This document shows positions 31,470-47,645 of a stretch of 64,000 bases of DNA, in pieces. The stretch covers positions 62,001 to 126,000 of the forward strand of contig NZ_VRMJ01000036.1 of the NCBI RefSeq assembly GCF_009832745.1, written 5' to 3'. Position 1 is the stretch's first letter; every line of letters starts with the position of its first letter. The translations under genes and the position numbers were made by a program. The notes beneath the pieces were generated by a model. That model worked only from the letters and a program-made list of their open reading frames with translations, did no database searches and was not told where the DNA came from. The DNA comes from Polaribacter septentrionalilitoris (GTDB lineage: Bacteria; Bacteroidota; Bacteroidia; Flavobacteriales; Flavobacteriaceae).

Positions 31470-32186
31470 TTACCAACTGTAAGTCATATTTGTATTATAG
31501 TCTGTATACAATCCTGAACCTGAAGCTGTCCACTCATAAAGGCTTGCTAAAAATGTACCTTCATAAACTTTCATGTTTCCAGAATTATTGCTGTTAGATT
31601 CTAAAACTAATTTATAACCATCAGTATCTAATTCAATTTTAGTTGTATCAGTTTCTACCCACCATTTTATGGTTGTATACGCTACATTATCTATATATAA
31701 ACTTGCTTCTGCATAACTACCATCTTTTAATTGATAACCGTCCATAAATTTACCTGTAAAATCTAGTGAAACAATACTATATTCAAAATTATATCTGTTT
31801 GATGTTTCAGAAATAACATAAGTTACAGAAACTCCGTCTGCAGACCAAGTATATGTTTGTGTATTCAAAATACTTTCTTTTGAAGCTGATTTAGCACCTG
31901 ATGGAACTGATGTTGCATTTGCAGGTACAGTAAATAAAGTTGCAAAAGACGATCCTAAAAGCTTTAATGTTTCAAATTGAGCATTAGCTTGTTGCGCATA
32001 CTGATTATTTGAGGCTGATAATGCTGCAGGTACAGACAATGCTTGAATATCTTTTACAAAATCTTGCATCACTTTTTCTGAAAGCGGTTCTCCTTCTAGA
32101 GCATCATTATCATTACTGCTACATGAAGTTGCTACTAATACGGCTACTAAGGCTAATACTGTAAATAATTTGTTTGTAATTTTCAT
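31470..32186 (-). CDS. Lipoprotein of unknown function, last gene of module A
   Basis: This protein of 238 residues has a lipoprotein signal with VLVATSCSSNDND, the cysteine being the likely lipidation site. The rest is acidic and beta-rich, with no recognised family. The start is set at ATG 32186: the 9 bases before it (CAAAAACT plus a flanking A) also precede the start of the surface-protein gene at 35193. The alternative ATG at 32204 adds only MKITKT, a near copy of the true start. It follows the BspA-like gene closely and is probably exposed on the outer membrane. It may partner the surface protein. Confidence 0.7.
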   Translation of the reverse strand: MKITNKLFTVLALVAVLVATSCSSNDNDALEGEPLSEKVMQDFVKDIQALSVPAALSASNNQYAQQANAQFETLKLLGSSFATLFTVPANATSVPSGAKSASKESILNTQTYTWSADGVSVTYVISETSNRYNFEYSIVSLDFTGKFMDGYQLKDGSYAEASLYIDNVAYTTIKWWVETDTTKIELDTDGYKLVLESNSNNSGNMKVYEGTFLASLYEWTASGSGLYTDYNTNMTYSW

Positions 32187-32214
32187 AGTTTTTGTGATTT
32201 TCATAGTTTAATTT

Positions 32215-35193
32215 TTACTTAATAATTAGTTTTTTGGAAACTGACCTATTTCCTGAGGTTGCTTTTACGATATAAATTCCTTTTGCAAATTTAGATGTAT
32301 TTATTTTTTGCTTGGAATTTATGTTTTTTTCTTCAAACATTTTTACTCCAATGCTATTAAATATCTGAATTTTATCAATAGTATTCTCATTCTCTAATTT
32401 AACTGAAAAACTTGATGAAGCTGGGTTTGGATAAAGAAGCAAGTTATTCTTTAATTCATAGAAGTTATCTACAGACAACACACTAGAATCTTCAACTTTT
32501 AGGGTAAAAGTACCTGCTTCTAATTTAGAACTTGTTCCTTTAGATGAAGCTGATTCTATCCAAATTTTTAAATAAAATTTTGTGCCAACTGTTAAGTTAT
32601 TTAAAGAAATACTTGTACCACAAGCTATTGGTGATATACTTGTACAAGATGCATAAATGGCAAATTTAAGTACGCCTTCTCCTGGAGTTCCTTGAACACT
32701 AAACTCGCCAGTTGCTGGCACAGTTACAGAATACCAAACATCTGTAAGTACAGTAACTGTAGCACAACTAGGATTATTATTTGCTGTACCACTATTTACA
32801 TCTCCTAAAACTTGCTGACCAAAAACTAATGGAATTGCATTTGCACAATCATCATTTGCAGGGGCACAATCTGTCGCATAAAAGGCTGTACCATCTTTGT
32901 TTGGCCAATTTGCATTGCTGTAAGAAGCATTATCAACTTCAATACATGTTAAATTTGGATTTCCTGTTGCACTAAATATTGTAATAATTGAATTGTTTCC
33001 GTTTTTTATTCCTAAACTCTCTAAATTATTATCATCAACATCTAACCAAAATAAATTTGTATTTTGTCTTAGATCAACTTGTTTAAGTTGATTCTCATTA
33101 GAAATAAGAGATGTTAACTTTGTATTAGAATTTGTGTTGATTAAGGTAAGTTGATTTTTATAACATGATAAAGTCTCTAAATCTGTTAAAAAATGAATTT
33201 CTAAACTGGTTAGATTATTCTCACCTACGTCAACATTTTTAAGTTTTGTATTTTTTGATAAATCTATAGAGGTAAGCTGATTATTTGCTAGAAACAGTTT
33301 TTCTAACAATACATTTTTACTTAAATATATGGATGAAATTTGATTGTTTGCTGCATCTAATTCTATCAGATTTATAAAATCTTCTATTCCAGTTAAATCT
33401 GTAATGTTTTTATCTTTGACAACAACTTTAGTAATATTTTCGATATCAGTAGTTAATACTTGTCCATTTATGGTTCCATCAGAATCGATATTTTCGTCAA
33501 TTAAATACTGCTCGAAATTTGCATCTGGAATCACAGTGATATCAATACAATCTTTAGTATCTCCTGAAATGTTCCAGTTATTTGGAGCAGAAGTTAGTAT
33601 GGTTCTAGCAGTTTCTCCCACACAATATTGTAAACCTGATGCCCCTAATGAAACATTTGATTTTAACGTTTGTGTTGCCCAACCTTTTAATAAAGCATCG
33701 TAATTACTTCTTGATAAGTCTGAGTTATTTAACATACCTGTCATTCTTTTAACTTTACTAACATTCCAATTACTCAAGTTTTGATTAAAAGCAAGCGCAT
33801 TAGAAAACATACCAGACATTGTGGTAACATTGCCTACATCCCAATCACTAATATCTTGGTTAAAATTGCCCGTGTTAGCAAACACCCCTTCCATATCAGT
33901 TACATTAGAAACATTCCAACCACTAATATCTTTATTAAAATCTCTTGCGCCATAAAACATACCCTCCATATTTGTAACACTAGATACATTCCAATTTCCT
34001 ATATCTTGATTAAAAGAATTTGCATCTCGAAACATATCTTCCATATCAGTAACGCTACTTACATCCCAACTTCCAATATCTTGATTAAAAACGACTCTAT
34101 CTCCATCAAACATAGACTCCATAGTTGTAACATTACTAACATTCCAGTTGCCAATATCTTGGTTAAATGCATTTGTATCTTTAAACATTTCTTCCATATC
34201 TGTAACATTGCTCACATTCCAACCACCAATATTTTGGTTAAAAATATCTGCACTGTTAAACATACCTCTCATATTAGTAACACTACTTACATTCCAATTG
34301 CCAATATCTTGGTTAAAGCTTATTGCATTTCTAAACATAGTGCTCATATTGGTTACATTAATCACATTCCAACTACCAATATTTTGATTAAAAAGAACTG
34401 CATTATAAAACATTTCTTCCATGTCTGTAACACTAATCACATTCCAACCGCCAATATCTTGGTTAAATCTTAAAGAACCTGAAAATATTCTGCTCATAGA
34501 GGTAACTTTACTCACATTCCAATTACCAATATCCTGATCAAAGTAATCTGTACCACCAAACATAGATTTCATATTAGTAACATTACTAACATCCCAACCA
34601 CCAATATCTTGATTAAAATACGTTCCAAAAAACATACCCTCCATATTCCTAACATTGCTTACATCCCAACTACTAATATCTTGATTAAAGTCTGAGTTAG
34701 AAAACATATAACTCATATCTGTAATGTTGCTAACGTCCCAATTGTCTAAGCTTTGGTTAATACCGGCAGTAAAAAACATATAGGTCATGTTGGTTGCGTT
34801 ACTTAAATTTGGGCTATCTGTGGCATTAATACTTAAATTGTCGCATTGTACAAAAGCATGAGCCATAGTTAACCACGGGTTGTTCCCCCATTGCTCTATC
34901 GTTTTTATTCTAAGTCTAGAACCACCTATACCAAAATAAATAGCTGGGAAAGTTCCTGTAATTGTTACTGTATAAGTATCTTTTGTTGCGTAAGTGTGTT
35001 TTGCGTCTTGTGTTAGACCACTAGATGTGGTTCCATCTCCCCAATTTACAGAGTAGTTGTAAGTATATTCACCCCAATTTGTAGGAATGGTAATTTCTTG
35101 ATTATCTTTAGTAGTTTCCCAAGTTGTGATAAATTGTCCAAATGAAATTTGAACAAAAAAAATAAAGAGTAGTGTTTGTAGTTTTGTTTTCAT
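32215..35193 (-). CDS. BspA-like repeat surface protein with T9SS sorting domain (module A)
   Basis: A 992-residue secreted protein. In order: signal peptide (residues 1-19), a PKD-like start (VNWGDGTTSSG), 14 BspA/DUF285 repeats of 24-26 residues (about residues 145-493, pattern FNQDIGxWNVSxVTxMxxMF), a stretch of leucine-rich repeats (about 598-770), a beta domain opening NDDCANAIPL, and a C-terminal type A sorting domain (LLLYPNPASSSFSVKL to SVSKKLIIK). It should be exported by SprA and attached to the surface. BspA-type repeats often mediate adhesion. It lies 15 bases downstream of the DUF4412 gene and upstream of a lipoprotein gene in one transcript. Confidence 0.92.
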   Translation of the reverse strand: MKTKLQTLLFIFFVQISFGQFITTWETTKDNQEITIPTNWGEYTYNYSVNWGDGTTSSGLTQDAKHTYATKDTYTVTITGTFPAIYFGIGGSRLRIKTIEQWGNNPWLTMAHAFVQCDNLSINATDSPNLSNATNMTYMFFTAGINQSLDNWDVSNITDMSYMFSNSDFNQDISSWDVSNVRNMEGMFFGTYFNQDIGGWDVSNVTNMKSMFGGTDYFDQDIGNWNVSKVTSMSRIFSGSLRFNQDIGGWNVISVTDMEEMFYNAVLFNQNIGSWNVINVTNMSTMFRNAISFNQDIGNWNVSSVTNMRGMFNSADIFNQNIGGWNVSNVTDMEEMFKDTNAFNQDIGNWNVSNVTTMESMFDGDRVVFNQDIGSWDVSSVTDMEDMFRDANSFNQDIGNWNVSSVTNMEGMFYGARDFNKDISGWNVSNVTDMEGVFANTGNFNQDISDWDVGNVTTMSGMFSNALAFNQNLSNWNVSKVKRMTGMLNNSDLSRSNYDALLKGWATQTLKSNVSLGASGLQYCVGETARTILTSAPNNWNISGDTKDCIDITVIPDANFEQYLIDENIDSDGTINGQVLTTDIENITKVVVKDKNITDLTGIEDFINLIELDAANNQISSIYLSKNVLLEKLFLANNQLTSIDLSKNTKLKNVDVGENNLTSLEIHFLTDLETLSCYKNQLTLINTNSNTKLTSLISNENQLKQVDLRQNTNLFWLDVDDNNLESLGIKNGNNSIITIFSATGNPNLTCIEVDNASYSNANWPNKDGTAFYATDCAPANDDCANAIPLVFGQQVLGDVNSGTANNNPSCATVTVLTDVWYSVTVPATGEFSVQGTPGEGVLKFAIYASCTSISPIACGTSISLNNLTVGTKFYLKIWIESASSKGTSSKLEAGTFTLKVEDSSVLSVDNFYELKNNLLLYPNPASSSFSVKLENENTIDKIQIFNSIGVKMFEEKNINSKQKINTSKFAKGIYIVKATSGNRSVSKKLIIK
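33724..34821 (-). repeat. Tandem array of about fourteen 72-78 bp coding repeats
   Basis: The DNA encoding the BspA-like repeats is periodic at 75 bases, with near-identical cores such as ATTCCAA..CC(A/G)ATATCTTGGTTAAA on the plus strand. Neighbouring units are similar enough for slippage or recombination to change copy number. Spurious open frames on the plus strand come from the same periodicity. Confidence 0.88.
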
Positions 35194-35208
35194 AGTTTTT
35201 GTTTTTTT

Positions 35209-36603
35209 TTAAAATCCCATTTTTCTGTATTCATTACTGTTGATTTTTACATTTTTATCAGTAACATTGGTAACTTTTATTTTAAAATTTTTACCTTGAT
35301 GTGTAGAATTTAACTCTAAAACAAATCCATTTAAATATGGGTTATTCATTTTCATACCTAACATTGGTAATTCTATATTTTGAATTGGGAATTCTTTAGA
35401 AACCCAAAAACTTACAGAACCTTTAGAATTGGTATAATCGTAATCTACTTTATACTCTTGGCAAGTGTAGCCTAAAATGGTTTTTGTATTTCCTGTTTTT
35501 TTATATTCGAAATCTGCTCCATCAGGTATTTTGTCATCCATATCATATTGACCTCCCATTTGTTCTAATGAAGTTGCTTTTTTCATTTTCATACCTGCAA
35601 CATCCATAAAACCTATAGATGCTTTTGGAGTCATTACCATAAGCATAGTTCCTTGACCTTGCATTTCTTTTGGTGCTACAGACATTCCCCAGATATCAGG
35701 ATAATTCCCTAAAAGAAACTCTATAGGGTATTTATCTCCTCTTTCATCAGTAATCTCAACTGCTATAGCTTTGTTAAAAGCAAATGTAGAAGGTATATTT
35801 ACAGTAGGTGAAAGTTTTTCTTTCATATATTTTTTATCTGCATCTGTGAGTTCTGTTTTTTGAGTGTTTTTATTTTCTACTTGTTTAAACTCTCTTGTAA
35901 CACTATATTTTGGAGATGTTGTAGAAATACTACCTGTTAAATTAGCAATCGTTGTTCCTCCTATACCTAAATTATCAGTTGTTGTTGAATGATCGTCTAT
36001 ATTAGCTTTTCCATTAAATGAAATCATAATATTTTGATCTTTATTAAACATTACAGTTACTGTTCCACTACTAAATTTAACTTCTTGCTGACCTGCTCTT
36101 ACTTTTTGATCAAAATCATATTTTCCTTTTACCAAAGCATCATAATCTAATTGTAATGTTGCTTCTTCTGGAATTTTAAACGTTTTATTTTTAAGGTTTT
36201 TAATATCTGTAATATTCTTTAAATTAAGAATATAACCATCATGAACATCCACTCCAAAAGTATCCCAGTAACCAACAATTTTTACTTTATCCCCTATTTT
36301 TTCTACATTAGTTTGAGTTAGTTGATTTATAGAAGTTGTACCATATAATTTGGAATGATTTATAGTAGCATTACCATAAGATTTTTTAGGAACAAACGTT
36401 TTCTTTTCTTTTTTCTTAGTTTTCTTTTTACCTTTTAATAAACTATCTATTTTTTTATCGGTTTCTTTTTCTACTTTGTTTTCAATTTTTTGTTGTACTT
36501 TTTTCTTTAGTTTTTTCCAAAATTGAGCATTAGAGGTATTTGCAAAACATATTGATAGAATAAGAAATGCGGTTAGCGTTTTGTAGTTAGTTTTTAGCTT
36601 CAT
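35209..36603 (-). CDS. DUF4412 domain protein, long form (module A)
   Basis: The 464-residue protein has a signal peptide (about residues 1-26) and a strongly basic amphipathic start to the mature chain (QFWKKLKKKVQQKIENKVEK). A lysine-rich linker, a middle beta domain of about 200 residues and a C-terminal DUF4412 domain (KTGNTKTILGYTCQEYKVDY, then FPIQNIELPMLGMKMN, GFVLELNSTHQGK) follow. DUF4412 has no established function. The gene at 42908-43663 is a shorter paralogue lacking the middle domain. It starts opposite the sigma factor gene at 36702, the two sharing a 98-base control region. Confidence 0.8.
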   Translation of the reverse strand: MKLKTNYKTLTAFLILSICFANTSNAQFWKKLKKKVQQKIENKVEKETDKKIDSLLKGKKKTKKKEKKTFVPKKSYGNATINHSKLYGTTSINQLTQTNVEKIGDKVKIVGYWDTFGVDVHDGYILNLKNITDIKNLKNKTFKIPEEATLQLDYDALVKGKYDFDQKVRAGQQEVKFSSGTVTVMFNKDQNIMISFNGKANIDDHSTTTDNLGIGGTTIANLTGSISTTSPKYSVTREFKQVENKNTQKTELTDADKKYMKEKLSPTVNIPSTFAFNKAIAVEITDERGDKYPIEFLLGNYPDIWGMSVAPKEMQGQGTMLMVMTPKASIGFMDVAGMKMKKATSLEQMGGQYDMDDKIPDGADFEYKKTGNTKTILGYTCQEYKVDYDYTNSKGSVSFWVSKEFPIQNIELPMLGMKMNNPYLNGFVLELNSTHQGKNFKIKVTNVTDKNVKINSNEYRKMGF

Positions 36604-36640
36604 TTTTAAAGTTTTTTCTTTTTAGTGATTCTAAAACCAA

Positions 36641-36683
36641 AAGGTTAACATTTTTTATTTATTTTTAATTTTTTGTTAACCTT
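36641..36683. promoter_or_regulatory. Inverted repeat between DUF4412 and sigma genes, module A
   Basis: AAGGTTAACA (36641-36650) and TGTTAACCTT (36674-36683) are perfect 10-bp inverted arms with a 23-base T-rich spacer. The right arm and the following CACCATTTTC-like bases align with the module B control region at 43720-43760. It is a candidate operator or ECF promoter pair for the divergent genes. Confidence 0.6.
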
Positions 36684-36701
36684 ACCATTTTCAAAACATT
36701 A

Positions 36702-37247
36702 ATGAGTGAACATCAACTTATCTTACTTTTAAAACAAGCAGATAAAAAAGCGCTTAAAATGTTGTACACAAAAAACAGATATCATTTTATCAATTTTGCA
36801 AGGAACTTTAAAGTTTCTGAAAATGATATCGTAGATGCTTATCAAGATGCAATTATAGCTTTGTCTGAAAAAGCTTTACAAGGAGAATTAGACAATTTAA
36901 AATGTTCTATTAAAACTTATTTATTTGGTATTGGCAAATATATGTTGTTTGAAAAAGCAAGAAAAAATCAAAAAAGAGTGTTAGATTTTCCGTTAGAAAA
37001 AGAAGATTATAATTACAAAAATATTGCTGAAGGTTTTTTGGAAGAAACACCTAACCAATTAGAAGCTTTATTACAAAAGGGATTTGCTTCTCTTGGCAAA
37101 AAATGTAAAGAAGTTTTAAGACTTTTTTATTACAGAGGTTTTACCATTAATGAGATTTCTGAAAGATTAGGCTACAAGGATAAAAATGTGGTAAAAAGTC
37201 AAAAATCAAGATGTATTAAACAATTAAAAGAAAAGATTAATAAGTAA
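36702..37247 (+). CDS. ECF-type RNA polymerase sigma factor (module A)
   Basis: A 181-residue sigma-70 family protein with only regions 2 and 4. Region 2 is seen in NDIVDAYQDAIIALSEKAL and SIKTYLFGIGKYMLFEKAR, and region 4 in LGKKCKEVLRLFYYRGFTIN and EISERLGYKDKNVVKSQKSR, a helix-turn-helix. Such sigma factors direct polymerase to a small regulon after a signal. It opens the rightward operon with the TPR membrane protein and the CHAT peptidase. Its closest relative in the window is the gene at 43783, with the same length and the same KNVVKSQKSRC-type ending. It may control the divergent DUF4412 and surface-protein genes. Confidence 0.92.
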   Translation: MSEHQLILLLKQADKKALKMLYTKNRYHFINFARNFKVSENDIVDAYQDAIIALSEKALQGELDNLKCSIKTYLFGIGKYMLFEKARKNQKRVLDFPLEKEDYNYKNIAEGFLEETPNQLEALLQKGFASLGKKCKEVLRLFYYRGFTINEISERLGYKDKNVVKSQKSRCIKQLKEKINK

Positions 37248-37250
37248 CTC

Positions 37251-37865
37251 ATGGAAAATCAAGAGTTTGATAAACATCTAAAAAAAGCAATTACTGCTGA
37301 AGAACGTAAACTTCAGAAAGCATACCTACATTCTGTTGAAAATTCTTTAAAAACTTCTAAAAAGAAGTTTAATTGGCGTATTGCAGTCTCTATTATTATG
37401 CTTTTAGGTTTAGTTAGTTATTTTGCACTATTCAATCAATCTTTAAGTAATGATGAATTGTATGCGAACTATTTTTCTCCTTATGAAAATGTTGTTAAGC
37501 CTATTGTTCGCGATAAAGTAAAACTGACTAAAATAGCTGAAGTTTTTAGTTTATATGAGAAAGGCAAATATGAAAAAGCACTTGAAAAATTTAATAAATT
37601 AACACCTCAAGATGCTATTGATGTTGGTACCCTAAATTTTTATAAAGCAAATACCTATTTACAGTTAAAACAGTTTGAAAAAGCAAAAACTATTTTTTCT
37701 GAAACTAAAAATAATAAAGAATGGAATCAAGAAAGCCTTTGGTATTTAGCATTAATTTCTATTAAATTAAATGATTCAGATGCTGCTTTAAAGAACTTAC
37801 ATATACTAAGCACAAAAACCTTTAAAAATAAAGAAGTTAAAGAGCTAATTAATTGGCTTAACTAA
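37251..37865 (+). CDS. Single-pass TPR membrane protein in anti-sigma position (module A)
   Basis: A 204-residue protein with a charged N-terminal part of about 41 residues (MENQEFDKHLKKAITAEERK read in part), one membrane segment (42-60, WRIAVSIIMLLGLVSYFAL), and a C-terminal part with TPR-like helices (FSLYEKGKYEKALEKFNKL, LNFYKANTYLQLKQFEKA, ESLWYLALISIKLNDSDA). It follows the sigma gene by three bases, where anti-sigma factors usually lie. No zinc-binding anti-sigma motif is seen. An anti-sigma role for the cytoplasmic helix, with the TPR part sensing in the periplasm, is inference. Confidence 0.8.
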   Translation: MENQEFDKHLKKAITAEERKLQKAYLHSVENSLKTSKKKFNWRIAVSIIMLLGLVSYFALFNQSLSNDELYANYFSPYENVVKPIVRDKVKLTKIAEVFSLYEKGKYEKALEKFNKLTPQDAIDVGTLNFYKANTYLQLKQFEKAKTIFSETKNNKEWNQESLWYLALISIKLNDSDAALKNLHILSTKTFKNKEVKELINWLN

Positions 37866-37893
37866 TTTTTACTTGAAAATAAAAACAAATGAA

Positions 37894-40686
37894 ATGAACT
37901 TAAAATCAAAAATACTTTTTTGCATTCTATTCATTTATTTAGGTTTTAACTCTTACTCTTTATTTGCTCAATCAGAAAAAACAGACAATTACAATAAACA
38001 AGTAAAAAAATTCTATCTCTTAAAAAAATATGATAGTATTATTTCTTTATCTAATAAATTGTTAGAAAATTTAAAAGCAAAAACAACCTCAGATAGTTTA
38101 CTGTTTGCCAAAATATACCTCAATAAATATAGTGGTCTTCATGAAAAAAAGAAAAGCCTTAATAATTTATCTTCATTAAATAAAGCAATATCTTATTGCC
38201 CCAATACACATACTGGAGATAGCCTAAAAGCAAGTTTTTATAATACAAAAGCATATCTAGAAAGTGAAATAGGCACAAGTATGAAAGCCTATAAAAATAT
38301 TTTAAAATCACTTAAACTTTTAGATAAACTACCCAACCCAAATTCAGGTTCTCTAATGGGTGCTTATTTGTTATTATCAACCGAAAATGCATATTATGGT
38401 AATTTTCAAAAAGCTAAATATTATATACGTTTGGCTGAAGAAGTTTATAAAAAAAACAAAACTTATATAGATAACAATACTTGGCAACTGAATGGAAATC
38501 ACCATAGAATGGGAGTTATTTTAAAGTACCGAAAAATATATATGCTTTGGAAAATGTCTAAAACCTCTAAGGATAGTTTATTGATTCTAAAAACGATGAA
38601 TGATTTAGAAAAAATGCATAACCAAGCTGATTTTCATAAAGAAGAAAGAATTTATTATAGTACTGCTTTGAATCATGTAGGTGATTGGTTTGTTTCTCAT
38701 AAATCCGATTCTTTAACAACAAAAAAAGATATAGAATTAGGATTAAGGTTTTTATTAAAGTCTCATAATTTAATTAAAAACAAAAAATACCCAGGTACAC
38801 TTTGGGCTGTAAAATACAATATTGCAAAGGGGTATACCAAAGGAAATTTGTTAGAAAAAGCAGATAGTACTATGTTAGCTTTGTTTAAAGGCATTTCTAA
38901 AACCGATGGCAGACGTCCTTTTTTCTATGCTCAAAAGGCATTAATAAAAGCAAAAAAAAATCAAAAAGATAGTGCCCTACTATATTTTGACAAGTCTATT
39001 CAAAAGATTCATAGTGGAAATGATTCTTTAGTAAGCCAATACTCCAACTTTAAACCTAGTAAAAGTTATAACCATACTCGTTTACTCCTTAGAATTAATG
39101 AAGAATTAAACAACTATTATTCTGCAGATACAATTGTTCAAAAGAAAATTGGTAAACTTTATTATTTAGCCCTACATCAATTTGAAAATAGTTATTTAAA
39201 CATCAACTTTAATAAAAAACAAAACAAACAACTTCGAAAAATTATTAAAGGGATTTTAAATGCAAAAAAAACAGGTTCTATTGATGATAATATTCTTCAA
39301 AAAACAATTTTAAACAAGTTTGAAATTTTTAAAAATCAATTGGCTTGGAAAAAGTTTTACGAGAGTCGTTATACAAATGTATTGCCAGAATTAGATTCTG
39401 TAAAACAAAGAAATGCAGCATTAGCTTCTTTGCTTAGTAAAGCAAAAATTGCAAAGAATGTTCCGCAAAAAGACTCTTTACAAAGGCTTATTCAAAAACA
39501 TAATACTTATAAGAAAAAGCAGTTTCCTCAATTAGAATTGTTGAGTAATTTTGAGTTTTCTATCGAAAACCTTCAGAAAGAACTAACCGATAAAGATGTT
39601 ATCTTAAAATACATTTTGTTAGAAAATGAAATTGCTATTTATCAAATTTCTAAATCTAATTTTAAAGTTCATTTAGTTCCGTGGACAAATACTGAAAAAC
39701 AAATATTAAATGATTTTATCTACAAAACTCGTAACAGAAAAAATAACATTGACTTGGGGAATCAATTAGGAGAACTTTTAATTCCTGAGTTAGACAATCA
39801 AATACATCATTTAATTATAAATCCAGATGGTGCATTGTTTAAATTACCATTTGAAGTTTTACAAACCCAAGGAAAATTTACAACTGAAACTTATCATATA
39901 AGCTATACGTCTAATTTAGGTTTTATAAACCATACTGTTAACAATACTGCTACTTCAAAAGATATTCATATTTATGCGCCTCTTTATGCTAACACAACAT
40001 ACTCATCTAACAGTAGAAATAAACCTTCTTTTTTAAAAGGCGCCAATAGTGAAGCTAAAAATATTAACAAATTGTTTCCATCTAAACTTTATAATGATGA
40101 GAACTTGACAAAATCAGCATTCATTAAAACAGCAGCAAAAGGGAGAATTTTACATTTGGCAATGCATGCTGAAGTAAATGAAGATTACCCAGAACTAAGT
40201 CGTTTATTATTTAGCAACAACTTAGAAAAAGAAGACGATCATTTGTACTTAGAAGAATTGTATGGTCTAAGTTTAAATGCAGAATTGGCAATTTTAAGTG
40301 CTTGTAATACTGGATCAGGCTTAGAGAAAAATGGAAATTTAGAATCTTTTCAAAGAGCATTTACCTTTGCAGGTGTGCCTACTACTGTAGTAAGTTTATG
40401 GCAAGTTCCTGATTTGGCTACAGAACAAATAATGCTATTCTTTTATCAGAATTTAAAAAATGGACAAACCAAATCTGAAGCTTTAAGAAATGCTAAATTA
40501 AGCTATAAAAATAAATATGCAGACAGCAAGCTTTCTGCTCCGTATTTTTGGGCAGGTTTTGTGGTGTATGGTAATGATGCGCCTGTATTTGAAACCTCAT
40601 ATAATTATTACATCATTATAGGTTTTGTATTTGTTTTGATTCTGATAGTTTTTTACCTCAACCAAAAAGGGTTATTAAAAAAATAA
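37894..40686 (+). CDS. TPR-CHAT caspase-like peptidase, membrane anchored (module A)
   Basis: About 930 residues. A signal peptide (MNLKSKILFCILFIYLGFNS read to residue 20, ending LFAQ) is followed by a long helical TPR region, then a C-terminal CHAT domain with the dyad His758 in LHLAMHAEV and Cys804 in ILSACNTGSG. SLWQVPDLAT and PYFWAGFVVYG are CHAT family motifs. A C-terminal membrane segment (IIIGFVFVLILIVFYL) comes before a basic end, so the peptidase should lie in the periplasm. ATG 37894 is preferred to TTG 37873 because it gives a normal signal peptide. It is third in the sigma operon. Known CHAT peptidases cleave specific partner proteins; the substrate here is unknown. Confidence 0.9.
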   Translation: MNLKSKILFCILFIYLGFNSYSLFAQSEKTDNYNKQVKKFYLLKKYDSIISLSNKLLENLKAKTTSDSLLFAKIYLNKYSGLHEKKKSLNNLSSLNKAISYCPNTHTGDSLKASFYNTKAYLESEIGTSMKAYKNILKSLKLLDKLPNPNSGSLMGAYLLLSTENAYYGNFQKAKYYIRLAEEVYKKNKTYIDNNTWQLNGNHHRMGVILKYRKIYMLWKMSKTSKDSLLILKTMNDLEKMHNQADFHKEERIYYSTALNHVGDWFVSHKSDSLTTKKDIELGLRFLLKSHNLIKNKKYPGTLWAVKYNIAKGYTKGNLLEKADSTMLALFKGISKTDGRRPFFYAQKALIKAKKNQKDSALLYFDKSIQKIHSGNDSLVSQYSNFKPSKSYNHTRLLLRINEELNNYYSADTIVQKKIGKLYYLALHQFENSYLNINFNKKQNKQLRKIIKGILNAKKTGSIDDNILQKTILNKFEIFKNQLAWKKFYESRYTNVLPELDSVKQRNAALASLLSKAKIAKNVPQKDSLQRLIQKHNTYKKKQFPQLELLSNFEFSIENLQKELTDKDVILKYILLENEIAIYQISKSNFKVHLVPWTNTEKQILNDFIYKTRNRKNNIDLGNQLGELLIPELDNQIHHLIINPDGALFKLPFEVLQTQGKFTTETYHISYTSNLGFINHTVNNTATSKDIHIYAPLYANTTYSSNSRNKPSFLKGANSEAKNINKLFPSKLYNDENLTKSAFIKTAAKGRILHLAMHAEVNEDYPELSRLLFSNNLEKEDDHLYLEELYGLSLNAELAILSACNTGSGLEKNGNLESFQRAFTFAGVPTTVVSLWQVPDLATEQIMLFFYQNLKNGQTKSEALRNAKLSYKNKYADSKLSAPYFWAGFVVYGNDAPVFETSYNYYIIIGFVFVLILIVFYLNQKGLLKK

Positions 40687-40689: not shown

Positions 40690-42867
40690 TTATTCAATAA
40701 TAATCTTTTTTGTAAACTGCTGACTTTTAGTTTTTAATTTGATAAAATAGATACCTTTTGAAAGAGAACTGGTATTTAAAATAGTATTAAATGTCTTGTT
40801 TTTTTGATGTATAACTTTCTTACCTAATAAGTTAAAAACTTCTACAGATTGTATTTCTTGATCTATAGATTTTGATTTTATATTGATAAAAGATGTTGCT
40901 GGGTTTGGGTAGATTGAAAAATTATCTTTAATAATTGCACTAATTCCTGTTGATAATACTCCATTATATTTTACAAAAAAGAATACTTCACTTGTAAAAT
41001 CAGAAACGTTTATGGTTACAGTTTTACTGTTATTATTAAAACTTTGTGGAGTAATCTCTGTCCAATTATTATTGTCATAAGCCAAAATCGTTATATTATC
41101 TCCTGTTAAATTTATGTTTTCAATCATATCATCATCAAACCCTAAAGTTAAACTTGCAGAAAAAGTATTGTTTTCTTTTAAGGTATTTACAGCATAAAAT
41201 AAACTAGATATTCTTGCTTTATTCTCGTTATTAGGTAAATTAATTATATTACCTTTAAATTGATTGGAAAGTGTGTCTAATAGTTGAACTTTTAATTGAT
41301 CGTTTTCGTTAAAAGTTATTGAGTTTGCATCTACATGATAAGTTTTAGAGTTGTATGTAAATGTTGTGTTGTTTTTACGGGTTGTTTTTGACCCTGAATT
41401 GTTAAATATTTTTGCTCTAATTTCTGCATTTAATGTATAAATTTTTTCTTCAGAATTTATAGTTTCACGTGATCTAACAATAAACCCATTATTGTAAGGA
41501 TATAAAAAATTTACATTTGGTTTTACATCGTTAGGAAACTGATATACTAACTTTATAGAGTCTTCATTGATATCATAAGCTAATAATAAATGTTTTTTTT
41601 CAGATAAGCTATATTCTGCTAAAAAATATAATCTATCTCCTACTGGTACTATTTTTCCTATATTTTTAGCAGGTGTAGATGTAGCAATGTATCTAGGAAT
41701 AAACATTTTTCTAGTTCCAGATTTTGTACCATCAGAAATAAACAAATCTTCGTAAAAACCAAAACCAACTTTTGGAAAAACATACAGTTTTTTTTGATAT
41801 TGCACATATTGAAATACATCTATTTGAGGAGCATCTATCTCTAAATCTTCTAAATTAGGGATACTATAAAACTTTTTAGAAAAACCATCTTGTTTAAAGT
41901 ATATAATTTTTTCATTAATTTTTCCTAAAATATTATCTGGACTATCAGCATCAGAAAAAGATTTATATCCTAAAGAACCATCATCGCCATTATTAATGGC
42001 TGTTTCAGTACTTCCAAAATCTATATCTCCATTAGAAAAACAAATATTTACAGGATAATTTCTCTCTACTGGACCAGGAACAACATTGGTATAGAAACCA
42101 TCTCGCCCGATAAAATAAATATAATCGTCAAGCAAAAAACTTTTTGGACTTACACCTTTAAAAGATGTTGGTTTAGAAACCTTATTTTGAGTTACTCTCC
42201 TTGTACCTAAAGCATCAACTTCATATAAGTCTAATTCTCCAGATACTTGAGCTCTAAAAAAGAGTTTATCATTCCATTTAAAAAAAGAATTTGGCGAGTT
42301 TTCTCCATAAAAACTTTCTGGTAATGTAAAATTTACTTGATTTCCATCTTTTTTAAAATGACGAACAACCAATTTATTAATTAAATTTTCTTGAATTGTG
42401 TCTATTGTAACCAAACCATCATTAGTCACTAACTGCATATTAAAGTTTGAAACAGTAGGTTTAAACGTATTTTCTGGTATTAATAAACTTCTTGAATTGT
42501 TTAATTTATAAACTTGGTTTAGAGCACCAGTATTTACAACCCCAGCATAAATAGCTTTTGTTGTTGTGTAGTTTCCATCTTTATACAATCTAACAGCATC
42601 TCCAGAAACATTTGTGCTAAAATAAGCTCTTGCAGTAGATCCTGGTAATAATTCTATTTTTTCACCAGGAACCCCATTACTAAGAAAAACACCTGGTAAT
42701 AACGTAGTATTGTTTTTTACCATTGTATACAAAATATCATTATCATAAACAGCCAAAGAATAAACTGTGCCTATACCTTCACTTTGTGGTTCATCAAGCA
42801 AAACCAATTGTGCTTTTGTAGTAACAAAAGTTAGAAAAAATGTAAATAAAAGTAATTTTGTTTTCAT
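40690..42867 (-). CDS. Secreted propeller-like surface protein with T9SS sorting domain (module B)
   Basis: A 725-residue protein with a signal peptide (residues 1-19, ending TTKAQ). The central part has short repeats of the type DLFISDGTKSGTRKMF and KLYVFPKVGF, close to the ELWxxDGT repeats of beta-propeller-like surface proteins. A small beta domain and a type A sorting domain follow (FSIYPNPATSFINIKSKS to SQQFTKKIIIE). It should be exported by SprA. It lies 40 bases downstream of the module B DUF4412 gene, matching the place of the BspA-like gene in module A, although the two are not related outside the sorting domain. Its stop is three bases from that of CHAT-A. Confidence 0.87.
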   Translation of the reverse strand: MKTKLLLFTFFLTFVTTKAQLVLLDEPQSEGIGTVYSLAVYDNDILYTMVKNNTTLLPGVFLSNGVPGEKIELLPGSTARAYFSTNVSGDAVRLYKDGNYTTTKAIYAGVVNTGALNQVYKLNNSRSLLIPENTFKPTVSNFNMQLVTNDGLVTIDTIQENLINKLVVRHFKKDGNQVNFTLPESFYGENSPNSFFKWNDKLFFRAQVSGELDLYEVDALGTRRVTQNKVSKPTSFKGVSPKSFLLDDYIYFIGRDGFYTNVVPGPVERNYPVNICFSNGDIDFGSTETAINNGDDGSLGYKSFSDADSPDNILGKINEKIIYFKQDGFSKKFYSIPNLEDLEIDAPQIDVFQYVQYQKKLYVFPKVGFGFYEDLFISDGTKSGTRKMFIPRYIATSTPAKNIGKIVPVGDRLYFLAEYSLSEKKHLLLAYDINEDSIKLVYQFPNDVKPNVNFLYPYNNGFIVRSRETINSEEKIYTLNAEIRAKIFNNSGSKTTRKNNTTFTYNSKTYHVDANSITFNENDQLKVQLLDTLSNQFKGNIINLPNNENKARISSLFYAVNTLKENNTFSASLTLGFDDDMIENINLTGDNITILAYDNNNWTEITPQSFNNNSKTVTINVSDFTSEVFFFVKYNGVLSTGISAIIKDNFSIYPNPATSFINIKSKSIDQEIQSVEVFNLLGKKVIHQKNKTFNTILNTSSLSKGIYFIKLKTKSQQFTKKIIIE

Positions 42868-42907
42868 AATTTTTTAGTTTAATATTTTTATTGAGTAACC
42901 TGATGTT

Positions 42908-43663
42908 TTAAAACATCGATTTATATTTAGAAGTATTGATAATAACTGTTTTGTCTTTTTCTATTTTTACTACTTTAATAGTGGCTTTTTCACCGTTTTT
43001 AGATGTGGAATCTAGTTCTAAAACAAAACCTTCAATATTCGTTTTGTTAGTCATACCTAATAAAGGTGCATAGGTTGCTTTTATAGGGAAATTTTGAGTA
43101 GTTATCCATGTAGAAATTGTACCTCCACCATTTTTGTATTGATACTCATAACACAAATAGCCTAAAATAGTTTTCGTTTTTCCAGTTTTTTGTAACTGTT
43201 CTTTTGTAGGCACTTTATCAGTATTATCAAAGCCAGAAAATTCATCTTCGGTTAATTCTCTTTTAATTTTCATACCAGATGCATTAATAAAAGATACCGC
43301 TTTTTTGGGTGATATAACATTGTAAATATTATCATTATCACCAGCACTCATTTGCATGCAAATGGTTTCTTTATTTGTTTTATCAAACAAAATATTAAAG
43401 GAAGCTTTGTCTCCTTGTTCAGATAAAATTTCAACTGTAATTTTTCCTTTAAAATGATAAATCTCTTTAGTCTTAGAGGTCTTGTTTTTTGTATTTAAAG
43501 TGCTATCAATTAATTTATCTGTTTGTTTATCTATGGTAGATTCTATTTTTTGCTCTACTTTTTTAACTGCTTTATCTTTTATTTTTTTCCAAAACTGAGC
43601 GTTAGTAGGAAAACAAAATGTGATAAAAAAGAAAAGAAATAAGGTTTTTTTAATGCTTTTCAT
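42908..43663 (-). CDS. DUF4412 domain protein, short form (module B)
   Basis: A 251-residue protein with a signal peptide (about residues 1-22, ending TNAQ) and a basic amphipathic start of the mature chain (FWKKIKDKAVKKVEQKIEST), similar to the long paralogue at 35209. The C-terminal DUF4412 domain keeps KTGKTKTILGYLCYEYQY, FPIKATYAPLLGM and GFVLELDSTSKNGE. It lacks the 200-residue middle domain. It diverges from the sigma gene at 43783 with a 119-base control region between them. Function is unknown. Confidence 0.8.
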   Translation of the reverse strand: MKSIKKTLFLFFFITFCFPTNAQFWKKIKDKAVKKVEQKIESTIDKQTDKLIDSTLNTKNKTSKTKEIYHFKGKITVEILSEQGDKASFNILFDKTNKETICMQMSAGDNDNIYNVISPKKAVSFINASGMKIKRELTEDEFSGFDNTDKVPTKEQLQKTGKTKTILGYLCYEYQYKNGGGTISTWITTQNFPIKATYAPLLGMTNKTNIEGFVLELDSTSKNGEKATIKVVKIEKDKTVIINTSKYKSMF

Positions 43664-43719
43664 GGTAATTTTAAGTTTGTTGTTTACTAATTAATGCCTC
43701 CTTTTAAAAAAAGTAAACA

Positions 43720-43760
43720 TGTAAACATTGTTTTTTTTATTTTTACTAAAAATGTTTACA
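43720..43760. promoter_or_regulatory. Inverted repeat between DUF4412 and sigma genes, module B
   Basis: TGTAAACATT (43720-43729) and AATGTTTACA (43751-43760) are perfect 10-bp arms with a 21-base T-rich spacer. A further AAAGTAAACAT precedes the left arm. The region after the right arm (CTTTACATTTTTC) aligns with CTTACCATTTTC in module A. Confidence 0.6.
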
Positions 43761-43782
43761 CTTTACATTTTTCATCATTAAT

Positions 43783-44328
43783 ATGCATAAAGACACCTTT
43801 TTATTAGAGGGATTAAAAAACGGGAATGAAAAGACGCTTTCTAAGGTGTATCTGATCTATAAGTCTGATTTTATTGCTTACGCAAAAAAGTTCGATTTGT
43901 CTAAAGATGATATTATTGATGTATATCAAGATGTCATTTTAGCTTTAAGAGAAAATGTAGTGTCTGGAAAATTAACAGCTTTAAACAGCTCTTTAAAAAC
44001 CTATATTTTTAGTATTGGAAAATACATGATATACAGCAAGCTGAGAAAGAAGAACAACGTTCATTTGCAAGAGTTTAATGAGTTTACAAATACAGAAATT
44101 AACCAAGATTACGATTTTTTATTCGCAAAAGAGCTCACACAAAATCAAAAAAAACTACAAATTGCTTTTAAAAAATTGGGTAAAAAATGCCAACAGTTGT
44201 TAACGCTTTTGTTTTACAATAATTATAGTTTTGATGATGTTTTAGAAGAACTAGATTACACTAGTAAAGATGTTGTAAAAAGTCAAAAATCAAGATGTCT
44301 AAAAACCTTGAAACAAAAAATAAAATGA
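43783..44328 (+). CDS. ECF-type RNA polymerase sigma factor (module B)
   Basis: A 181-residue sigma factor with regions 2 and 4, the exact length of the module A protein. Region 2: KDDIIDVYQDVILALRENVV and SLKTYIFSIGKYMIYSKLRK. Region 4: LGKKCQQLLTLLFYNNYSFD followed by VLEELDYTSKDVVKSQKSRC. Most differences from module A are at surface-type positions, while the recognition-helix end DVVKSQKSRCLK is nearly the same, so the two may read similar promoters. Its stop TGA overlaps the ATG of the next gene (ATGA), implying translational coupling. Confidence 0.92.
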   Translation: MHKDTFLLEGLKNGNEKTLSKVYLIYKSDFIAYAKKFDLSKDDIIDVYQDVILALRENVVSGKLTALNSSLKTYIFSIGKYMIYSKLRKKNNVHLQEFNEFTNTEINQDYDFLFAKELTQNQKKLQIAFKKLGKKCQQLLTLLFYNNYSFDDVLEELDYTSKDVVKSQKSRCLKTLKQKIK

Positions 44329-44933
44329 TAAATGATGATGATTTAAAAACGGTAATTGCTAAAGAAGAATACACAAAAGGAAAAAAGCAATTACAAAAAT
44401 TAGAAACTAACCGTTTTTCTATTCAGAAAAAATGGTTGGTTGCTGCGTCTTTTATTGTGTTTGTTAGCTTGCTTAGTTTTTGGCTTCTACAAAAAGATGT
44501 TACTCCAAAAGAATTGTTTGCACAAAATTTTGAAGTTTATCCAAATCTTATCACCCCAAAAACACGTAGCGAAAACACAAATACGCTAAAAGAAATAGCA
44601 TTTAATAATTACGAAATTAAAAATTATAAAGAGGCTATTAATGGTTTTAATACACTTTTAGCATTAAAAAATACAGATACAACTGCTGTAAAATTATACA
44701 AAGCAATTAGCCTTTTAAGTATTGATAATACTTCAGAAGCAATCAGTATTTTAGCAAAAAATAAAGAGGCTAATAAGAAATGGAAAGACAAATATTTATG
44801 GTATTTATCTTTAGCTTATTTAAAAAATAATCAACCAGAAAAAGCGAATAAAACACTAGAAAATTTATCTAAAGAAGAATATAACTTTAAGAAAAAAGCA
44901 ACCTTAACGCTGTTGAAACTTCTTAAAGAATAA
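44325..44933 (+). CDS. Single-pass TPR membrane protein in anti-sigma position (module B)
   Basis: About 202 residues: charged N-terminal part (MINDDDLKTVIAKEEYTKGK), one membrane segment (about 37-55, WLVAASFIVFVSLLSFWLL), then TPR-like helices (AFNNYEIKNYKEAINGFNTL, DKYLWYLSLAYLKNNQPEKA). The start is ATG 44325, overlapping the sigma stop by four bases and aligning with the start of the module A protein; ATG 44295 would add ten residues that have no match there. Its role as anti-sigma factor is inferred from position. The 3' end overlaps the convergent CHAT-B gene by 30 bases. Confidence 0.8.
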   Translation: MINDDDLKTVIAKEEYTKGKKQLQKLETNRFSIQKKWLVAASFIVFVSLLSFWLLQKDVTPKELFAQNFEVYPNLITPKTRSENTNTLKEIAFNNYEIKNYKEAINGFNTLLALKNTDTTAVKLYKAISLLSIDNTSEAISILAKNKEANKKWKDKYLWYLSLAYLKNNQPEKANKTLENLSKEEYNFKKKATLTLLKLLKE

Positions 44934-47645
44934 CCAAATTCCAAAAATCAGTATTATTGATATTGCAGGAACAATCACTTTAAACAAGGAATGATTTTGG
45001 GGTTCTATAATGGCAGATGTATCTCCAGAAACCACAAAACCTGCCCAATAATAAGGTGCTAAAAGCGCTACATCATTAGTGTTTGCAAGATATTCTTGTT
45101 TGGCTTTTTGTAAAGCTTTTGCTTTGGTCATTCCCAGTTTTAGGTTTTTATAAAAAGAAATCATAATTTCTTTTGTGGTAACATCTGGTACTTCCCACAG
45201 GCTAGAAATAGTGGCATTAACGCCTGCTAATCGAAAAGCTCTTTGTAAAGAAACTGCTCCAATATTTTCATTTAATTTGGCTGTACCTGTATTACAGGCA
45301 CTCAAAACTGCTAAGTTTGCGTTTAATTTCAGCCCATACAATTCTTCTAAATACATGTTTGCAGAATCATCATTAGAAAAAGAAAAATAACTTAATTCTG
45401 GTGTTTTATGATTGATTTTTGCATGTGAAGCCAAATGGATAATATCTGCTTTAAAAGCATTTTGCATAAAGTTTTGCTTGCTTGCTTTTTGTCCACTAAA
45501 ATGCGTAACATCAAAAATAGTAGAAATAAATTCTGCTTCTTTTAAAGCACCTTCTAAGGTTTCTTTTTCATTTCTTAAACTCTCTTTTTTTACAGATGTA
45601 TATGTTGGCGAAAAAACTTGAATTTTATCAAATTGTTTTTTAGCTGTGTTCTGGCTATTCACAAAAACAAGATAAGATGCGTAACTAATGGTTTTACTCT
45701 CTACTAAGTAAGTATCATCTTTTGTAACTAAGGTTTCAAAAGGAAGGTGATGCAAAATATCATCTGGAATAATAATTAAGTGTTCATAATTTTGAATGTT
45801 GAATGGTAAAATTTCACCTAAAATACTTTTTGCCAATTGCTTATTTTCTGTTGAATTTTTAAGAAGCTTTATATAAGTATAAATGTTATTTTTTAATTCT
45901 TTAGAATAGGATATTGATTTTAAAGTAACCGATTTTTTATCGATTTTAAATACATGAAAATTGTTACCTATTCTTTTAAATCTAAATACGGTTGCATTAT
46001 TTTTTAGCTGTTTTTGTAAATCTTCAACCTTAAAATCTTTATAAATATAATTAGAGATAGAAGGGTATTCCTCTTCAAGAAAACTCAAATGTTTTTCAAT
46101 TTTATTGTTTAATTCTGCAATTAAATTTTTGTCATGATCCTTTCTGGCAGCAACCAATTGAGTTCTTAAATAGGCTTCTTTGTAAAAAACTGCATCAGGA
46201 ATAGAAGACGTTAATAATTTTCTATTTTGTAAAAATTCTTTCCAAGAAAATCTATTTTCTAAATTTTCTATAGCATTAATTAGTTTTTTGTTTTCTAAAT
46301 TACCAAAACCTAATTTTTTGGTTTTAATAATACCTTCTATGGTTTTATGATAGTAATTTTTAATTTTTGTATTAAAATTGGCTTCTTTATAACAGTTTTG
46401 TAATTGCAGCAAACCCATTTTATAAAACTGCGCAACATTTTTTAAAACAAGGGTGTCCTTTGGATACTTTTCCAAAATTTCATCAGCAATTTCTGCCAAC
46501 AAACCAGTATGATTTAACACTGTACTAGGTCCAAAATTTTGATAATTTGTAGCTAATTTTAAAGAATCTGAATGTATGAAAGCAACCATTTTGTTGAATT
46601 CAATTAGAGCTTTTTGTGGATTACCTTGATCTAAAAAAATCAATCCTTTTTGTGCAATAAAAAAAGGAAAACGACTGTCTTTTTCTCCTGATAGGTTTAT
46701 TATTTTTTGATTGAGTTTTAATGCTTCAGCATATTTTTTACTATAACGTAATTGTTTTGCTTTGTTAAATTCAAACTGAAGATAATTGTCAAAATACTCT
46801 TTCTTATCAATATTTTTAAGTGCTAAATTGATATAATAGTTACCTTTTTGTAAAGGGTTGGTATCTGAAACATTTTCTCTAAAGTTCAAATAAAAATCGC
46901 CAATACAATTTAAGGAAGCAGCATACATTAATTTTTCAGTAGTATTAAATGGTATTGCTTTTTTTAGTTTCTCTAAATTTTTAAAATGATGCAACATCTT
47001 TTTTTCATCACCTTTTAGGTGATATAAATAAATGTATTTGTATTGAAAAAGTACTTTTTTAGAAGCTTGATTTGGGTTGATAATATCCTTAAAATTCAAC
47101 TTATTTTTAAAAATTGCATAGCCTTTGTTTAAGTAAAATTCTGCTTCTTCATAAAAACCTAAATAAGAGGCTTCACTACCTAAGTCTGCATAAATTGAGA
47201 GTAAATAATCATAATTTGGGTTGGAAATTTTACTTAATACCTCTTCTGCTTTTTTTACGGTTTTATAAGAAAGTACATATTCTTTTAACTCGTATTCTGC
47301 AAAAGCCTTATCATATAATGCAGTTCCTAAAATATTTTTTCCTGATGAATTATTAGGTGCAATTTTTGTTACTAAATTATAGTAAGTAACTGCTTTTAAG
47401 TAGTTTTCTAGGTTGTAAAAAGCATTTGCTTTTGTATGGTATATTTTTGATACTAATAAACTATCATTTGTGTTTTTTAGAGAGAGTGAATCTAACGGAT
47501 AGGAAATGAGTTCTTTAAATTGTTGATTTTTAAAACTATGCTCAAATTTTTGTAGTATAGAATCGAGTTTACTTTCTTCTTTTTGAAAAGAAAAAGTTGC
47601 CATAGAAGTACAAAGCAGTAAAATTAAAAAGCTTTTTTGTAGCAA
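44904..47645 (-). CDS. TPR-CHAT caspase-like peptidase, membrane anchored (module B)
   Basis: A 913-residue paralogue of CHAT-A. It has a signal peptide (MLQKSFLILLLCTSMATFSF read in part), a TPR region (about residues 30-480), a CHAT domain with His741 in IHLASHAKI and Cys784 in VLSACNTGTA, motifs SLWEVPDVTT and PYYWAGFVVSG, and a C-terminal membrane segment (VIVPAISIILIFGIWLFF). The start is TTG at 47645. Unlike CHAT-A it lies on the strand opposite its sigma gene and converges with the TPR protein, overlapping by 30 bases, so it is not in the sigma operon. Both catalytic residues are kept. Confidence 0.9.
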   Translation of the reverse strand: MLQKSFLILLLCTSMATFSFQKEESKLDSILQKFEHSFKNQQFKELISYPLDSLSLKNTNDSLLVSKIYHTKANAFYNLENYLKAVTYYNLVTKIAPNNSSGKNILGTALYDKAFAEYELKEYVLSYKTVKKAEEVLSKISNPNYDYLLSIYADLGSEASYLGFYEEAEFYLNKGYAIFKNKLNFKDIINPNQASKKVLFQYKYIYLYHLKGDEKKMLHHFKNLEKLKKAIPFNTTEKLMYAASLNCIGDFYLNFRENVSDTNPLQKGNYYINLALKNIDKKEYFDNYLQFEFNKAKQLRYSKKYAEALKLNQKIINLSGEKDSRFPFFIAQKGLIFLDQGNPQKALIEFNKMVAFIHSDSLKLATNYQNFGPSTVLNHTGLLAEIADEILEKYPKDTLVLKNVAQFYKMGLLQLQNCYKEANFNTKIKNYYHKTIEGIIKTKKLGFGNLENKKLINAIENLENRFSWKEFLQNRKLLTSSIPDAVFYKEAYLRTQLVAARKDHDKNLIAELNNKIEKHLSFLEEEYPSISNYIYKDFKVEDLQKQLKNNATVFRFKRIGNNFHVFKIDKKSVTLKSISYSKELKNNIYTYIKLLKNSTENKQLAKSILGEILPFNIQNYEHLIIIPDDILHHLPFETLVTKDDTYLVESKTISYASYLVFVNSQNTAKKQFDKIQVFSPTYTSVKKESLRNEKETLEGALKEAEFISTIFDVTHFSGQKASKQNFMQNAFKADIIHLASHAKINHKTPELSYFSFSNDDSANMYLEELYGLKLNANLAVLSACNTGTAKLNENIGAVSLQRAFRLAGVNATISSLWEVPDVTTKEIMISFYKNLKLGMTKAKALQKAKQEYLANTNDVALLAPYYWAGFVVSGDTSAIIEPQNHSLFKVIVPAISIILIFGIWLFFKKFQQR

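Follow-up and report, generated by a model that had tools for sequence, protein, structure and literature searches.

We analysed a window of 64,000 nucleotides (nt) from Polaribacter septentrionalilitoris (contig NZ_VRMJ01000036.1, positions 62,001 to 126,000; coordinates below are those of the window). It carries two abutting gene modules, A (31470-40686) and B (40690-47645), each encoding an extracytoplasmic function (ECF) sigma factor, a single-pass membrane protein with tetratricopeptide repeats (TPRs), and a TPR-CHAT peptidase. The evidence points to a circuit in which the CHAT peptidase probably cuts the TPR protein after an Arg or Lys in the loop that follows its membrane helix, and so frees the sigma factor. 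New here are the occurrence of Arg or Lys at one loop position in 151 of 155 TPR proteins, three CHAT columns that change together with this loop residue in two separate clades, and a common predicted promoter type at both sigma genes and at both operons headed by a gene for a DUF4412-like protein. Our searches found no description of this gene set in the open-licence literature, and none of the role of CHAT domains across Bacteroidota in the searchable literature.

The sigma-TPR-CHAT gene set and its recurrence

The core genes of the two modules and their key codons are as follows.

36702..37247, + strand: ECF-type sigma factor A (TIGR02937)
37251..37865, + strand: single-pass TPR protein A, predicted to be an anti-sigma factor and a substrate of CHAT (Pfam, hydropathy, model)
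37509..37511, + strand: Arg87 codon of TPR protein A, candidate P1 residue for cleavage, in the loop that joins membrane helix and TPRs
37873..40686, probable start 37894, + strand: TPR-CHAT peptidase A, with a C-terminal membrane segment (PF12770, hydropathy, model)
40051..40053, + strand: CHAT A Glu727, candidate S1-pocket residue
40165..40167, + strand: CHAT A catalytic His765 codon (numbered from the TTG)
40303..40305, + strand: CHAT A catalytic Cys811 codon
40411..40413, + strand: CHAT A Asp847, candidate S1-pocket residue
43783..44328, + strand: ECF-type sigma factor B (TIGR02937)
44295..44933, + strand: single-pass TPR protein B, a predicted anti-sigma factor whose gene shares 34 nt with sigma B
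44565..44567, + strand: Arg91 codon of TPR protein B, in the alignment column of TPR A Arg87
44904..47645, - strand: TPR-CHAT peptidase B, His741/Cys784; convergent with TPR B, overlapping it by 30 nt

An earlier note on this DNA had placed the named open reading frames (ORFs) in two abutting modules, and this is how they lie. In module A the sigma, TPR and CHAT genes run rightward, all co-directional, and a leftward series encodes a DUF4412-like protein, a surface protein of the type IX secretion system (T9SS) and a lipoprotein. Module B likewise has DUF4412-like and T9SS genes leftward and sigma and TPR genes rightward. The earlier note lists the peptidase after the rightward pair; in A it does follow the TPR gene co-directionally, but in B its gene is on the minus strand, convergent with that of TPR B.

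Both sigma factors, of 181 residues each, score above the TIGR02937 cut-off of 42.9 bits (63.5 for A and 49.3 for B). They are also each other's best match in the genome, as had been supposed, at 124 bits compared with at most 39.7 for other ECF rows (21 such rows, the weakest matches being left out). Identity between A and B is 42% for sigma, 32% for TPR and 32% for CHAT. The nearest relatives of each module copy are in other species, those of CHAT A with a name being Polaribacter species, and another genome of the genus (locus L013) has both module types in reverse order. Because of these relatives, and judged from the sequences, A and B are an old pair of paralogous modules and no fresh duplication; a recent tandem duplication was ruled out by the 32-42% identity together with the closer relatives of each copy elsewhere. 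Sigma A C135 and C171 are invariant across 36 aligned module sigmas, which raises the question of redox or metal control.

PF12770 matches CHAT A with 195.8 bits (E 1.4e-57) and CHAT B with 183.4 bits (E 8.3e-54) against a cut-off of 24, and no further CHAT domain was found in the genome. The His/Cys pair reported in the earlier note is intact in both, as H765/C811 in CHAT A counted from the TTG at 37873 and His741/Cys784 in CHAT B. Since M8 of CHAT A is invariant in 8/8 aligned rows, the start is probably at 37894, which gives the Cys804 of the earlier note. The dyad recurs in 177 of 180 CHAT-labelled rows. The CHAT profile also retrieves TPR histidine kinases, and rows shorter than 800 aa were set aside; above that length two kinase hybrids and one TPR protein remained among the profile rows, and the three dyad-less rows, counted in a smaller set, are likewise two kinase hybrids and one protein with TPRs only, and not CHAT. 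Cleavage activity of the module peptidases is predicted.

CHAT was present in 15 of 58 genomes of the genus, 135 of 299 of the family and 148 of 296 in a phylum sample. We collected 80 CHAT neighbourhoods, of which 20 belong to the genus and 60 are those that headed the list for the family. With the window included, 83 of 88 dyad-bearing CHAT genes shared their stretch with a sigma-TPR pair, which lay within 500 nt in 57 cases, and the commonest CHAT arrangement in these genus and family loci was convergent. Among the spacings listed, all but two sigma-TPR gene pairs lie -45 to +9 nt apart. All three genes were present in 17 of 20 later loci with weaker CHAT scores and in 42 of 47 named CHAT-picked loci (six of which repeat earlier loci), including Kordia, Winogradskyella, Gilvibacter, Saprospiraceae and Chitinophagaceae. 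Twenty family loci were picked by their TPR gene; four already had a CHAT listed nearby, and 11 of the other 16 have all three genes (counted by eye). Outside the family the full set was found in 14 of 20 loci, once via a 250-aa CHAT-labelled ORF (L097), a linkage that is partly circular, as 14 of the 20 had been chosen for a CHAT listed nearby. A linkage figure of at least 43 of 91 is a lower bound and was not used. The sigma, TPR and CHAT genes co-occur widely outside this genome, as the proposal of a shared module had implied.

Co-variation between a TPR loop residue and the CHAT domain

The TPR proteins have a common plan, in which an N-terminal region is followed by one membrane segment, then by a conserved stretch with Arg-Gly/Ser at its end, and finally by the TPRs. 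Hydropathy indicated one hydrophobic segment each in TPR A and TPR B (residues 42-64 and 46-67), and a membrane segment in 64 of 77 TPR proteins at the threshold used. The Lys/Arg residues ahead of the segment suggest that the N-terminus is cytoplasmic. In an AlphaFold2 model of TPR A (predicted local distance difference test, pLDDT, 90.9), a helix at 2-35 is followed by the membrane helix at 42-61 and by TPR helices from 94, and Arg87 lies within an irregular loop (75-93) that leads from the membrane side to the TPRs; the matches listed for this model among known structures are mostly TPR domains. Across 155 TPR proteins the loop column (residue 87 of TPR A) holds R in 143, K in 8, M in 2, H in 1 and a gap in 1, and the next residue is mostly G (93) or S (40). 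Together with the model and the co-variation described below, this conservation makes R87 in A and R91 in B the likely sites of cleavage.

We paired each TPR protein with its nearest CHAT, and dropped three of the 159 pairs: L091 (residue absent), L097 (partner not CHAT) and one that was merged. At TPR column 87 and CHAT column 847, the remaining 156 pairs are R-D in 141 cases, K-E in 8, M-E in 4, K-D in 2 and Q-Q in 1. One locus, L099, was read as H in the loop count and as R in the pair count, and was excluded from the column test described below with L091 and L097. Glu at CHAT 847 was never paired with Arg, and a Fisher test on the first 142 pairs gave p 2e-8, uncorrected for descent. The single Q-Q locus, L203, with Gln at the presumed P1 column and at CHAT 847, groups with the K rows.

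The two groups with Glu are separate clades, a single clade being rejected by the approximately unbiased (AU) test (p 0.0138, 54-row subset); columns 727, 809 and 847 were left out of this test, and the groups were named after the first tree had been seen. In the R set, 39 CHAT columns reach 85% conservation or more; of these, 727, 809 and 847 alone deviate in 75% or more of the K clade and also of the M clade. None deviates in the K group alone and four do so in the M group alone, and the chance of three shared columns is about 0.004 if columns are exchangeable. On the TPR side, 87 is the only one of 18 conserved columns that is fully changed in both clades.

Column 809 lies two residues before the catalytic Cys. 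E727 is residue 720 of the CHAT A model (pLDDT 80.9), within helix 715-725, which we take to match alpha1 of gingipain and MALT1; according to PMC4626109, the acid that binds P1 Arg in those proteases sits in helix alpha1. The pattern formed by TPR 87 and CHAT 727, 809 and 847 is that expected of a substrate residue and its putative pocket.

Tight docking would also yield the conservation of R87 and the co-variation of the pocket. CHAT and the TPR protein, both of which have TPRs, might act as a non-proteolytic periplasmic receptor, with TPR-TPR docking that signals via the membrane helix to sigma and R87 docked in an old active-site pocket. However, docking alone would not maintain the near-universal dyad, and the rows without it are not CHAT proteins; we regard such a receptor as unlikely. 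The earlier note had the membrane-anchored CHAT peptidase act on a periplasmic part of either the TPR protein or the surface protein; the first of these is supported indirectly, and is now narrowed to one candidate bond.

A shared predicted promoter element and the presumed output genes

The remaining module genes and the predicted promoters are as follows.

31470..32204, - strand: lipoprotein-like ORF, 244 aa, output; gene three of the DUF4412 A operon, separated from the T9SS gene by 10 nt
32215..35193, - strand: T9SS-sorted DUF285/leucine-rich repeat (LRR) surface protein A, output (Pfam); begins 15 nt after DUF4412 A
35209..36603, - strand: DUF4412-like exported protein A, 464 aa, output
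36622..36650, - strand: predicted sigma promoter of the DUF4412 A operon, TGTTAACC ... CACTAA (coordinates hand-counted)
36674..36702, + strand: predicted promoter of sigma A, the -10 overlapping the start codon (pattern match)
40690..42867, - strand: T9SS-sorted surface protein B, output (Por_Secre_tail)
42908..43663, - strand: DUF4412-like exported protein B, output (PF14371)
43691..43719, - strand: predicted promoter of the DUF4412 B operon, TGTTTAC ... CATTAA
43753..43781, + strand: predicted promoter of sigma B

A promoter of the type TGTTWAC-N14-17-MATTAA, or near to it, is predicted ahead of the two sigma genes and the two DUF4412 operons. The window contains this pattern three times compared with 0.40 expected, always between sigma and DUF4412, and 1 of 100 shuffles reached three; the fourth promoter, that of DUF4412 A, has CACTAA. 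In the fetched loci GTTAACA is found upstream of 37 of 118 sigma genes (1.7 expected) and 16 of 33 DUF4412 genes (0.5 expected), and an anchored alignment gives TGTTAACCTTT followed by CATTAA about 14 nt on. At 32 of these 118 sigma genes there are 28-30 nt from the element to the start, and the -10 abuts the start codon, so that the message would be leaderless or nearly so. Autoregulation of sigma is predicted from the shared element. A further 61 loci were obtained later (67 minus six duplicates, some being close relatives of the first set), and in their Flavobacteria/Saprospiraceae group the element was present at 10 of 15 DUF4412 genes, 12 of 37 sigma genes and 0 of 431 other genes.

Beyond the sigma genes, TGTTWACC lies 44-68 nt before the start of 74 genes in the fetched loci, of which 19 are DUF4412 genes. 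By a hydropathy/lipobox rule, 53 of the other 55 have an export signal, compared with 48% of other genes there, and Pfam on 52 of these 55 gave collagen repeats in 10, subtilase in 5 and a barrel domain in 4. Promoter class tracks the sigma phylogeny, with 29 changes of five labels compared with a shuffled mean of 79, a fit that shared descent of the flanks would also give. A generic search for word pairs in the promoters returned mostly AT-rich words. There are 16 pattern sites outside the modules in this genome; five of the seven inspected lie within ORFs and two ahead of genes, 51 nt before what is presumably a thioredoxin-like gene and 70 nt before what is presumably a helicase-like one. 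A second sigma group (L015, L016, L061, L063, L105, L110) has TGTTACCC once upstream of sigma and no paired TGTTWACC sites.

DUF4412 and surface-protein genes look like promoter-controlled output. The earlier note had counted them as part of the shared module; DUF4412 adjoins sigma in 34 of 81 loci of genus and family, in 21 of the 47 named ones and in none of the 20 from outside the family (with a profile built from family members), so it is optional, as are the T9SS proteins, and the conserved core is sigma, TPR and CHAT. The DUF4412 label is itself marginal: protein B scores 20.8 bits against a cut-off of 21.6 (E 3.5e-4) and A has no DUF4412 match, while the two are 36% identical over 194 aa. 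Comparison of protein B with the PDB by sequence gave nothing convincing (best E 0.5). Both surface proteins do end in Por_Secre_tail by Pfam, as described earlier, and their similarity is confined to this T9SS tail. Surface protein A has 14 DUF285 repeat copies at 33717-34760, spaced 72-78 nt, and this repeat is a likely hotspot for length change.

These output genes bear on a second alternative, in which CHAT mainly targets DUF4412, T9SS or another sigma-controlled protein and the sigma-TPR pair only controls expression of that set. The output genes do code for exported proteins, and in some loci (L155, L159) CHAT lies downstream of DUF4412 in one direction. However, DUF4412 is optional and the sigma-TPR pair nearly constant, and only 3 of 122 CHAT genes have TGTTWAC within 200 nt, which makes this alternative quite improbable.

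The proposed circuit and its relation to known systems

With CHAT acting on the TPR protein, each module would be a self-contained envelope-signalling circuit. The TPR membrane protein would hold the ECF sigma factor at the inner membrane via its short cytoplasmic N-terminus, and its TPRs would face the periplasm, as would the peptidase, which is probably anchored by its C-terminal membrane helix. The TPRs of CHAT probably sense an envelope signal, upon which the peptidase is predicted to cut the TPR protein after R87 (A) or R91 (B), just outside the membrane, as a site-1 cut; as peptidase and presumed anti-sigma factor are separate proteins, this cut could occur in trans. By analogy with RseA, the TPR remnant would then be cleared and sigma released. 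From the TGTTWAC-N14-17-MATTAA promoters sigma is predicted to transcribe its own gene and the DUF4412/T9SS/lipoprotein operon; in some other species its targets would also include additional exported proteins.

Several results weigh against this scheme. The co-variation amounts to few events, in two independent pairs of rows; the M rows (and L007) were assigned by eye after misalignment; and one K clade (L007, L032) keeps all three CHAT columns unchanged, which an acidic pocket would tolerate. In a profile alignment D847 stands opposite Csx29 S666, four residues before K670. The promoter is absent from the Chitinophagaceae group of the later loci (0 of 16 sigma genes). The pattern of an exported regulon was not seen in the later loci (1 non-module match). 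In this genome the promoter's count of 19 shows no excess over the 28 of a reversed control, for which reason a genome-wide regulon defined by this pattern was dropped. At the hydropathy thresholds used, 13 of 77 TPR proteins have no membrane segment, and no N-terminal hydrophobic segment was found in 55 of 90 CHAT rows, CHAT B included (an older 90-row set, superseded by the 88 rows with the dyad).

The anti-sigma role predicted for the TPR protein is the weakest step of the chain. Compared with long forms, the window copies are missing the first half of the N-terminal region, and an NCBIfam scan of these copies gave no anti-sigma domain match. Of 22 long forms, 4 and 3 are matched by anti-sigma models of NCBIfam (best E 5e-4 and 1.4e-3), whereas an ISL3 transposase model matches 11 of the 22 with a better E (2.4e-5); with Pfam the same transposase appears in 4 long forms, and zf-HC2 in 2 at E 0.14. 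Because the transposase model scores better in more of them, the anti-sigma matches are unspecific, and our confidence in the whole chain is slightly lowered accordingly. These weak matches, and a window N-terminus that in the model is one helix (2-35) ahead of the membrane, would suit a TPR protein that is a co-activator or membrane scaffold, or a system in which another protease releases sigma and CHAT modulates, but a sigma gene coupled to a single-pass protein gene is the usual sigma/anti-sigma arrangement, and we hold this to be the least probable of the alternatives.

Release of sigma by CHAT cleavage has its closest known counterparts in Csx29/Csx30/CASP-sigma and in DdvA. The CHAT A model aligned with Csx29 at a VIA Z of 27.2 (585 residues, root-mean-square deviation, rmsd, 6.3), with Chaetomium separase at Z 25.9 (308 residues, rmsd 3.2) and with DdvA at a VIA Z of 20.8 (510 residues, rmsd 17.7). 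For sequence comparison with the PDB we used a profile of the CHAT domain only, since the whole-length profile returned TPR proteins only among the 60 matches listed; the best match of the domain profile was DdvA (8rot, 8rw5; E 2.4e-8). Separase cleaves on the C-terminal side of Arg, with D2070 in contact with the P1 Arg (PMC12609080). PMC9729208 equates Csx29 K670 with the separase Asp that binds P1 Arg; D847 as the exact counterpart of that Asp is unsupported by our profile alignment.

Csx29, a TPR-CHAT protease, cuts Csx30, an inhibitor of the ECF sigma factor CASP-sigma (PMC10028731). This type III-E CRISPR (Craspase) set resembles the modules both in fold and in its combination of protease, inhibitor and ECF sigma factor. 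It differs in that Csx29 is described as driven by Cas7-11 and guide RNA, presumably in the cytoplasm, whereas the modules have no PADLOC match. PADLOC gave none in the 8 module and 10 flanking proteins, with the presence of a Cas7-11 model in its library unchecked, and a defence system was set aside for lack of a match in those 18 proteins. Csx30 is cut after Leu407 (PMC9729208), whereas in the modules Arg or Lys is the presumed P1 and a TPR membrane protein would be the substrate.

The PDB entries of DdvA describe it as a transmembrane anti-sigma factor and name its chain CHAT domain-containing protein; we take these structures to be of the myxobacterial DdvS-DdvA pair. In DdvA the CHAT part belongs to the anti-sigma chain, whereas here peptidase and presumed anti-sigma factor are separate genes. 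RseA/DegS/RpoE and other anti-sigma factors controlled by proteolysis are similar in having a sigma factor, a single-pass membrane inhibitor, a periplasmic first cut and an autoregulated operon (predicted here). DegS is a trypsin-like PDZ protease encoded apart from its sigma/anti-sigma pair; the module peptidase, in contrast, is caspase-like and encoded with the sigma-TPR pair. ECF54 has CHAT, subtilase and carboxypeptidase neighbours, and proteolytic control has been proposed for it (PMC8999054). It is like the modules in having CHAT in the sigma neighbourhood; unlike the modules, with their presumed anti-sigma factor, it is described as having none. CHAT and ECF sigma factors are now found together in at least three layouts: Csx29 with a sigma factor and Csx30, the single chain of DdvA, and the modules described here.

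On a wider scale we lean slightly towards a phylum-wide system, in which a separase-like, Arg/Lys-directed periplasmic peptidase of the caspase fold makes the first cut in a TPR anti-sigma factor, as a caspase-family counterpart of DegS, and which was possibly the setting from which Csx29/Csx30/CASP-sigma joined CRISPR. If so, a function and a substrate could be assigned to one CHAT family, along with a single predicted cleavage bond, and the circuit would be a CRISPR-free relative of the Craspase-sigma circuit. The promoter would be a ready reporter, and the R-D, K-E, M-E and Q-Q combinations would be natural enzyme-substrate pairs for specificity.

Some further genes lie near the modules. 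In the window, two TonB_C proteins at 30592-31332 (-) and 49668-50414 (+) bracket the double module on opposite strands, and their genes have a common 63-nt inverted repeat (73%). In L150 (12406-15075) a LytTR response regulator and a TPR histidine kinase (Pfam) lie just past CHAT; gene pairs of similar size recur by other modules, L150 alone having been scanned with Pfam. In several family loci the gap between sigma and CHAT is filled by a constant set of gene sizes, which in L111 (5292-8408) are a 650-aa PKD-DUF7619-DUF7849 protein and a 327-aa protein without a Pfam match. Most Chitinophagaceae loci have a gene of about 300-370 aa before CHAT; the one scanned (L190, 6520-7452) is without a Pfam match.

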